DNA of 64,000 bases, from positions 1-64,000 of the forward strand of contig JAFLTX010000001.1 of assembly GCA_022509145.1 (NCBI GenBank), in the 5' to 3' direction. Below are positions 13,522-16,122 of the stretch, piece by piece. Origin of the DNA: Muribaculaceae bacterium (GTDB lineage: Bacteria > Bacteroidota > Bacteroidia > Bacteroidales > Muribaculaceae). The notes below the pieces were generated by a model. The model had not been told where the DNA came from and ran no database searches. It saw only the letters and a program-made list of their open reading frames with translations. Every line of letters starts with the position of its first letter. Positions within the stretch are counted from its first letter, which is position 1. Made by a program: the position numbers and the translations under genes.

Positions 13522-14583
13522 CTATTGCTTCAATTTCACAATCCAGCCTCTTTTCTTCCCCTCAGGTCTTGCTATATATCCCTTCCTTTCCAGATTCTTG
13601 ACCTGTTTCTGAATTGCCGATCGATTCATATTGAGCTGTTGAGCTATTTTAGTCAAAGAAGCAGTAGGGTCTGTTTTTAGAATATTTAAAATCCGCGAGG
13701 GTGTGGGAGTTGAAAATTCAATAATCTCTCCATCATACCACCATTTCAACTCCTTGTTGCCGGATAAAAATTCCATAATGTCGTAAATATGCGACACCAT
13801 TGCTTTCTCCAGATAATCGGCAAAAGGTTTTACCTGAGATAAAGTGGCGTGCGCGCCTTCAGAAGGAATCGGTCCGGTAATGGTATCTGTCAGCGCCAAA
13901 GCATTCAGATAACCTTGCTTCTTTGAAGAGCGGATTACCAGCATCGGCCACCCATGACGTCGTAAGATGAAATTAACCATCAGACGCGCGATACGGCCGT
14001 TGCCGTCTTCAAACGGGTGTATCCTGATATAGCGGTAATGAAACAGGGTGGCAATCTGGATCGGTGTCAAACTTTTCTCCTCCACGGCGCGATTATACCA
14101 CTCAACCAAATCGGCCATCAGCGCCGGCGTCTCTTCCGGAGAGGCATATTCAAAGCGTTCTCCGGTGGGTGTGATTACGGAATTGGGACGTGTTTTGTAG
14201 CTTCCGGCATGCACCACGTAACTCGAGGTTTCGCCCCCGGGAAGTGTGCGGTAGACAGTGAAATCTTCACGAAGCATCACTCGATGCACCTGTCGAATAA
14301 AGGTCTCGGTAAGCGGGGTGTCAGCGTCCGCCTCCTGCTCAATCATATTGAGGCAGATGTTATGAGCCTTCATCTCCTCAAGGTCTCTCATTCTTGCCTC
14401 GCCTATAACTTCACCCAAAAGCAGGAGCACTTCTGTCTGCCCGTAGGTCAGCGTATTCCCTTCGATGTGATTGCTGTTGTAATTAAAATCCAGCATAAAT
14501 TTTTGCCTCAATCTCTTGGCATCTTCTTGTGAAAGAGGTTGAAGCGCCAGCCACTCATTATATAGTTTCTCTAATTGTGTCAT
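13522..14583 (-). CDS. Fic-family protein with N-terminal inhibitory motif and C-terminal winged-helix
   Basis: ORF; Fic core 'HPFEDGNGRIARL', N-terminal 'SNHIEGN' matching (S/T)xxxE(G/N), C-terminal 'SLTKIAQQLNMNRSAIQKQVKNLERKGYI' HTH. Confidence 0.92.
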   Translation of the reverse strand: MTQLEKLYNEWLALQPLSQEDAKRLRQKFMLDFNYNSNHIEGNTLTYGQTEVLLLLGEVIGEARMRDLEEMKAHNICLNMIEQEADADTPLTETFIRQVHRVMLREDFTVYRTLPGGETSSYVVHAGSYKTRPNSVITPTGERFEYASPEETPALMADLVEWYNRAVEEKSLTPIQIATLFHYRYIRIHPFEDGNGRIARLMVNFILRRHGWPMLVIRSSKKQGYLNALALTDTITGPIPSEGAHATLSQVKPFADYLEKAMVSHIYDIMEFLSGNKELKWWYDGEIIEFSTPTPSRILNILKTDPTASLTKIAQQLNMNRSAIQKQVKNLERKGYIARPEGKKRGWIVKLKQ

Positions 14584-14599
14584 ATAGAAGAATTTTTTG

Positions 14600-14631
14600 C
14601 AAATATACAAAACGTACCACCAACTACCAAA
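14600..14631 (-). promoter_or_regulatory. Promoter of the Fic gene: TTTG-N20-TATATTTG
   Basis: CAAATATA at 14600-14607 and CAAA at 14628-14631 on + strand; 20-nt spacer; ATG of Fic at 14583. Confidence 0.75.
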
Positions 14632-14715
14632 TATACCACCAAATTAGTGGTATCAATTGAGTCTATAATTAAAACGTACCACCGACTTAAGAATGTACCA
14701 CCGGATTGGTGGTAC
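14614..14715. promoter_or_regulatory. Duplicated composite operator: two units of [GTACCACC-N11-(G/A)TACCACC-N5-(G/A)GTGGTA(C/T)]
   Basis: Boxes at 14614-14621, 14633-14640/14646-14653, 14676-14683, 14695-14702/14708-14715; same internal spacing in both units (19 bp box to box, 5-nt palindrome spacer). Confidence 0.85.
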
Positions 14716-15567: not shown

Positions 15568-16122
15568 ATGAACGACTCAAATGTAGCGGAACGACTGAAA
15601 TCCTACATTGAATTCAAGGGTTTGAGCTACGCGCAGTTTGCAGACACCTGCAAAATTCCGCGTCCGTCGTTGTCGCAGCTCCTTACAGGTCGCAACAAGA
15701 AGATCAACGACATTATGGTAGGTCAGATTCATAATGCCTTCCCCGACCTATCGATTCTTTGGTTGCTCTTCGGAGAGGGTCCGATGGAAAACTCGGCCAG
15801 TGAGAATTCAGAATCGGGAGTCGATGCCGGCGCCGGTTTTAGCGATGGGCTCTTTGCCTACCCTTCCAATGACAATTTTAGCGGCGGGAAAAGAAATTTC
15901 CCGACCGGAGCAAGGGATGAAAATGAAATTTTGAAGGAAAACGGCCTTAGAGGGGGTATAAATGGCTCGCAAATCTCTGATGCAGAAGAAGAAAAGCTCC
16001 GGAATATGATAAAGGAATTGCGAGGCAGAATAGACGAAATGAAGAAAAATCCAAGAAAAGCCGTGCAAATCACCGTCTATTACGACGATTCAACGTTTGA
16101 GACATTTTTCCCAAGAACATAA
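15568..16122 (+). CDS. Helix-turn-helix (Cro/CI-type) transcriptional regulator
   Basis: ORF 184 aa; 'LSYAQFADTCKIPRPSLSQLLTGRNKKIND' HTH followed by 'LSILWLLFGEGPM'. Confidence 0.85.
   Translation: MNDSNVAERLKSYIEFKGLSYAQFADTCKIPRPSLSQLLTGRNKKINDIMVGQIHNAFPDLSILWLLFGEGPMENSASENSESGVDAGAGFSDGLFAYPSNDNFSGGKRNFPTGARDENEILKENGLRGGINGSQISDAEEEKLRNMIKELRGRIDEMKKNPRKAVQITVYYDDSTFETFFPRT

Follow-up and report, generated by a model that had tools for sequence, protein, structure and literature searches.

CccR (YPK_0951) of Yersinia pseudotuberculosis is a class II FIC protein with a C-terminal helix-turn-helix (HTH) and a T6SS effector, and it represses its own gene through palindromes at the −35 and −10 elements (PMC9755527). 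This autorepression was demonstrated by footprint, EMSA and a lacZ fusion (PMC9755527). Its operator, AGATAATCAT-N26-ATGATAATCT, is one widely spaced pair of half-sites. CbFic2 of Coxiella burnetii (PDB 8cil) is also a class II Fic protein with a C-terminal winged helix; it dimerises and binds DNA, was assayed with random DNA only, and has no known operator (PMC10628234). The SoFic family (SO_4266, PDB 3eqx; E. coli Sofic, PMC12249575) has the same combination of a Fic domain and a C-terminal winged helix. Many Fic proteins carry a C-terminal winged helix; among those that we found, only CccR has a mapped operator, and our search of the open-licence literature brought up no operator described for a Bacteroidales Fic protein.

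Here, we analysed a fic gene and its upstream DNA in a stretch of 64,000 nucleotides from a Muribaculaceae bacterium (hereafter the window). The gene is preceded by two units of short repeated boxes. We predict from the sequence that they are the fic operator, read by the winged helix of Fic itself, which would repress its own gene, with the distal unit as an auxiliary (we give this reading a probability of about 0.8). The features of the locus are as follows.

13522..14583, − strand: fic gene (353 aa), with a Fic domain (PF02661) at residues 90-207 and a winged helix (HTH_24/MarR-like) at about residues 292-347.
13585..13623, − strand: recognition helix of the winged helix, residues 321-333 (AlphaFold model, block pLDDT about 95; covariation).
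13609-13611 and 13618-13620, − strand: codons of Q325 and S322, which covary with the operator.
13984..14019, − strand: Fic catalytic motif HPFEDGNGRIAR, residues 189-200, matching HPFx(D/E)GNGRxxR.
14455..14475, − strand: class II inhibitory motif SNHIEGN, residues 37-43, fitting (S/T)xxxE(G/N).
14600..14607, − strand: −7 promoter element TATATTTG (TAnnTTTG).
14615..14621, − strand: proximal box C, GGTGGTA on the coding strand, within the promoter spacer.
14628..14631, − strand: −33 promoter element TTTG, N20 from the −7 element.
14634..14640, − strand: proximal box B (GGTGGTA), separated by 2 nt from the downstream −33 element.
14646..14652, + strand: proximal box A, reading TACCACT on the coding strand; a half-site inverted relative to B and separated from it by N5.
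14677..14683, − strand: distal box C'.
14696..14702, − strand: distal box B'.
14708..14714, + strand: distal box A', forming a perfect palindrome with B'.
14614-14621, 14633-14640 and 14646-14653: proximal 8-mers as read, GTACCACC, ATACCACC and AGTGGTAT.
14676-14683, 14695-14702 and 14708-14715: distal 8-mers as read, GTACCACC, GTACCACC and GGTGGTAC.

The protein has the hallmarks of a self-inhibited AMPylase with a DNA-binding domain. Pfam models for Fic (1.9e-19) and HTH_24 (3.9e-10) match it, and its sequence carries both the catalytic motif that defines Fic/FIDO AMPylases and the inhibitory motif that defines the self-inhibited class II. Among 56 orthologs, columns 189-193, 195-197, 199 and 200 of the catalytic motif and N38, H39, E41, G42 and N43 of the inhibitory motif are invariant, S37 and I40 being nearly so. 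The AlphaFold model has a mean pLDDT of 83, with the blocks of the winged helix mostly at 92-95, and places three helices in this domain, at residues 294-304, 310-317 and, for the recognition helix, 321-333. The inhibitory motif sits within Fic itself, and no candidate ORF for a separate small antitoxin gene, as found in type II toxin-antitoxin systems (phd-doc, ficTA), lies beside fic on its strand.

The sequence-only reading could name no described system, but CccR is one of the same kind. Foldseek matched the Fic model over its full length, HTH included, to PDB 7xux at 18% identity, an entry that is probably CccR going by its description and length. As in CccR, a C-terminal winged HTH is fused to the FIC domain and a palindromic putative operator overlaps the promoter elements of the gene itself. 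The operators differ: the N26 spacing of CccR is absent, and the window has three 7-bp boxes, combining an inverted pair at N5 with direct repeats 19 bp apart, in a doubled arrangement. Foldseek also matched CbFic2, at about 15% identity. The PADLOC SoFic model PDLC03963 matches residues 35-345 (1e-28), while the score for the NCBIfam SoFic equivalog NF046030 falls far below its cut-off (31.9 versus 550 bits), and no AS1-like small downstream antitoxin gene fits the gap of about 100 bp of the window's fic. The closest solved Fic domain is that of BT_2513 from Bacteroides thetaiotaomicron (PDB 3cuc; E 1e-98, residues 3-266), whose solved chain of 291 residues aligns over the Fic domain only and hence gives no information on DNA reading. 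The solved full-length relatives are CbFic2, CccR (probably 7xux) and SoFic. Autorepression by FIC-HTH proteins is already known from CccR; new are the predicted operators of a large group of Bacteroidales Fic proteins, an arrangement in doubled three-box units and what looks like a specificity code of two residues.

Direct reading of the sequence agrees with what had been described for the upstream region. The two units, at 14614-14653 and 14676-14715, have the same architecture and are offset by 62; the distal palindrome is perfect and the proximal one has a single mismatch. On the coding (−) strand, the unit reads TACCACY-N5-RGTGGTA-N12-RGTGGTA (boxes A, B and C), with GGTGGTA as B and C in both window units. 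The boxes are 7 bp long, B and C being direct repeats and A inverted relative to B. The proximal unit is interlocked with a promoter on the − strand, TTTG (14631-14628)-N20-TATATTTG (14607-14600), upstream of the Fic ATG at 14583; the predicted transcription start is at about 14593-14596. One box lies inside the spacer and the palindrome is just upstream of the −33 element, its next box being 2 nt from TTTG. The distal unit in the window is followed by no −7 element and is without a promoter. Exact TACCACC-N5-RGTGGTA sites were found only in the two window units when the whole 2.06-Mb genome was searched, and the full three-box pattern has 48 sites in 397 genomes of the family, versus none for a reversed control pattern. 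Allowing one mismatch, the single 8-mer GTACCACC occurs 28 times in the window for 23.5 expected, which is no enrichment. Hence, the significance lies in the arrangement of the boxes, not in the word itself, and the 8-mer count was dropped as evidence.

A lack of conservation upstream of orthologs had been set beforehand as the refuting outcome, but the boxes turned out to be kept in position and layout. We defined a close set of 12 sequences, comprising the window's gene and its close orthologs (71-82% identity). The proximal unit is present in all 12, with A at −67 to −72, B at −55 to −60 and C at −36 to −41 relative to the start codon, and B and C are always 19 bp apart. TTTG follows box B in 12/12, and TAnnTTTG closes the unit 14 bp after the start of box C in 11/12. 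Individual boxes show one-base differences in some of these orthologs. The distal copy is found in 10/12 and is never accompanied by a promoter box, as claimed for the window. Orthologs at 55-59% identity (L126, L127, L134, L139 and L054) retain the A-B-C layout, with N6 for N5 and B and C still 19 bp apart. The two-unit layout belongs to the window and the close clade; it is not a trait of the whole family. In the 10 close loci with both units, the distances between units are 57, 60, 61, 62, 62, 62, 63, 64, 66 and 75 bp. We rejected a strict helical phasing of the units, since the spacing is mostly near six turns yet variable; this variation makes looping just a suggestion.

Beyond the close set, we searched mechanically for palindromic half-sites of the form [AG]GTNNNN in 131 non-redundant upstream regions of Bacteroidales orthologs. 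A palindrome matching 6/7 or 7/7 half-site bases was found in 89 of them, when shuffled sequences gave an expectation of 2.5. Another 20 reached 5/7 and 22 had lower matches or none, some of these having no promoter of their own or divergent motifs. Half-sites fall mainly into four classes, GGTGGTA, GGTTGTA, GGTGGCY and GGTATAY. Nearly all palindromes of the GGTTGTA class end 17±1 bp upstream of the −7 box and so cover the −33 region. Those of the convergent GGTGGTA class have the form GGTGGTA-N4-TACCACC, in many cases with N6-RGTGGTA after it, and are placed immediately after the −7 box, over the transcription start. Both are classical repressor positions, which points to repression, as judged from these sequences. 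The use of one half-site convergently, divergently and as direct repeats across classes suggests that the winged helices may be flexibly tethered.

Several Bacteroidales loci depart from these patterns. Two fic genes of a GGTTATA class (L142 in G342 and L136 in G097) combine an operator of their own, close to the start, with a GGTGGTA-class unit farther upstream, which their own helix should not read and which is perhaps the relic of a replaced fic gene. Four Fic orthologs (L042, L046, L047 and L144) lie right behind the end of an apparent restriction-subunit gene, HsdS-like by eye, and have no operator of their own; among them, L144 has a divergent recognition helix (SENAVLK). Fic families from the same genus and order that are more distantly related (L110, L111 and L112, from G031, G004 and G030; L113, L098, L094 and L101) each have repeated motifs of their own directly upstream, for example direct repeats of about 21 bp, AAAAAGTAGGGTGAAAAGATT, in L110, GTAGGGAGAAAA repeats in L111 and L112, and CTTGCCGAT palindromes in L094 and L101. 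Self-regulation of an iteron-like kind may be a general trait of stand-alone Fic genes.

We computed weighted mutual information (effective number of about 30) between each of the four variable half-site positions and the 353 protein columns, using the 89 mechanical palindromes, with L126 and L127 corrected by hand to their evident GGTGGTA unit. Of the 353 columns, S322 scores highest for both half-site positions 4 and 5, as does Q325 for both 6 and 7; the two residues are at the N-terminus of the recognition helix in the AlphaFold model. For position 6, the normalised score of Q325 is 0.63 (next column 0.25, median 0.06); the lead is smaller for position 4, where S322 has 0.28 and the neighbouring N320 has 0.24. 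Glutamine at 325 occurs with T6 in 73 cases, lysine or arginine with C6 in 8, and asparagine with A6 in 4, the exceptions being two Q with C6, one N with C6 and one D with T6. At 322, serine goes with G4 and alanine or threonine with T4. All GGTA-class helices read xxSA(I/V/L/A)Q (35/35) and all TGTA-class helices Sx(A/T)A(I/V)Q (31/31). The pairs are chemically sensible, with glutamine to A and lysine or arginine to G on the other strand. This covariation supports a direct reading of the operator by the winged helix of Fic. To take phylogeny into account, we used a tree of the Fic domain only, with 107 rows, 18 of which were added from weaker calls (8 of these by eye). Column 325 ranks first of the 161 tested with this tree-aware approach. 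There are few transitions in the tree: independent pairs are about 5-6 concordant versus 1 discordant for residue 325 and base 6, and about 4 versus 0 for residue 322 and base 4, leaving 1-2 pairs when only strongly supported branches are used. Sign tests on these pairs are underpowered by the few transitions and are not significant (median p of 0.125-0.22). The covariation thus appears strong in ranking and in chemistry; the phylogenetic contrasts give no independent proof of it.

These results suggest the following mechanism. Fic would bind the three boxes of the proximal unit and thereby cover the −33 element and the spacer, probably in the form of a dimer or a larger oligomer; a dimer could sit on A and B, with a further protomer on C. 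Bound Fic would block RNA polymerase, resulting in negative feedback on its own gene that may keep a potentially toxic AMPylating enzyme at low levels. The distal unit, 62 bp upstream, would act as an auxiliary operator, most likely by raising local occupancy or cooperativity, possibly through a small loop. The sequence-only reading proposed that the winged helix of Fic, or a partner, binds the boxes and autoregulates; for the winged helix, this proposal gains support from the conservation of the boxes and their covariation with the recognition helix.

Alternatively, Fic might bind the boxes and activate its gene or merely position itself there, as in DNA-gated AMPylation, with no repression at all. 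The activity of CbFic2 is indeed induced by DNA binding (PMC10628234). However, the operators of the main classes overlap the −33 element and spacer or the start region, where a bound protein is expected to hinder the polymerase, and CccR is a repressor. The overlap with the promoter and the precedent of CccR lead us to favour autorepression and to regard activation as unlikely. It is a little less probable still that another regulator binds the boxes and that Fic is a mere target. This could be a global factor or the product of the neighbouring gene at 15568-16122, which is on the other strand, begins about 850 bp away and has by eye the look of a phage-repressor-type HTH protein. This divergent gene matches no Pfam, NCBIfam or PADLOC model, and the stretch of about 850 bp before it is AT-rich and appears to be non-coding. 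Against such a regulator, the box sequence follows Fic residues 322 and 325 above any other Fic column, the ORFs adjoining close orthologs vary by locus, and the box is unique in its genome, implying that there is no global regulon.

A further possibility is that the units are parts of a small dispersed repeat or recombination site by which fic genes are carried or attracted; their distribution bears on this. Among the 48 sites in the 397 genomes, 23 are at most 300 bp upstream of a fic gene of this family (22 in the same orientation), and 25 adjoin no intact fic gene, a few sites being at contig ends. Some adjoin toxin-antitoxin-like pairs (two identical copies, L261/L262, in G271:C3; L267 in G294; L268 in G279), with an ATPase-type gene also present in G271. 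In G185, identical 38-bp units in the same orientation lie upstream and just downstream of one fic gene (L223, G185:C4:43498 and 44735). These observations would fit a mobile repeat, but genomes have only 0-2 copies, with none elsewhere in that of the window, the geometry relative to the promoter is fixed, and the units covary with the Fic protein. Moreover, at least four of the 25 loci look like scars of lost fic genes: in L265 (G062:C4), the unit and promoter are followed by a fic pseudogene, its reading frame interrupted by a stop at codon 3, and in L264 (G092:C26), L253 (G297) and L269 (G021) the DNA matches fic upstream regions and breaks off before the gene. We thus find a dispersed repeat improbable. 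The neighbours of the remaining fic-less units are heterogeneous and include toxin-antitoxin-like pairs and ATPase genes, which led us to reject a common regulon of orphan units. Finally, perfect palindromes could also work as RNA, in a hairpin, terminator or attenuator. Yet the changes in half-sites follow the DNA-recognition helix, and the operator switches sides of the −7 box between classes. The units are upstream of the predicted transcription start and so would be untranscribed from the fic promoter, which led us to reject this possibility as extremely improbable.

Self-repression by Fic therefore remains our preferred reading. More tentatively, and at slightly under even odds, Bacteroidales may hold a large family of one-gene self-repressing AMPylase modules, with a specificity set essentially by residues 322 and 325 and several distinct operator classes (GGTGGTA, GGTTGTA, GGTGGCY, GGTATAY and others). 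The diversified operators would insulate such modules from one another, the doubled unit in the close clade would steepen repression, and operator occupancy may gate AMPylation. Operator predictions are now available for about 90 Bacteroidales Fic proteins, together with a two-residue code that is open to swaps of residues and boxes. Our results suggest that these Fic enzymes may limit their own expression without a separate antitoxin.
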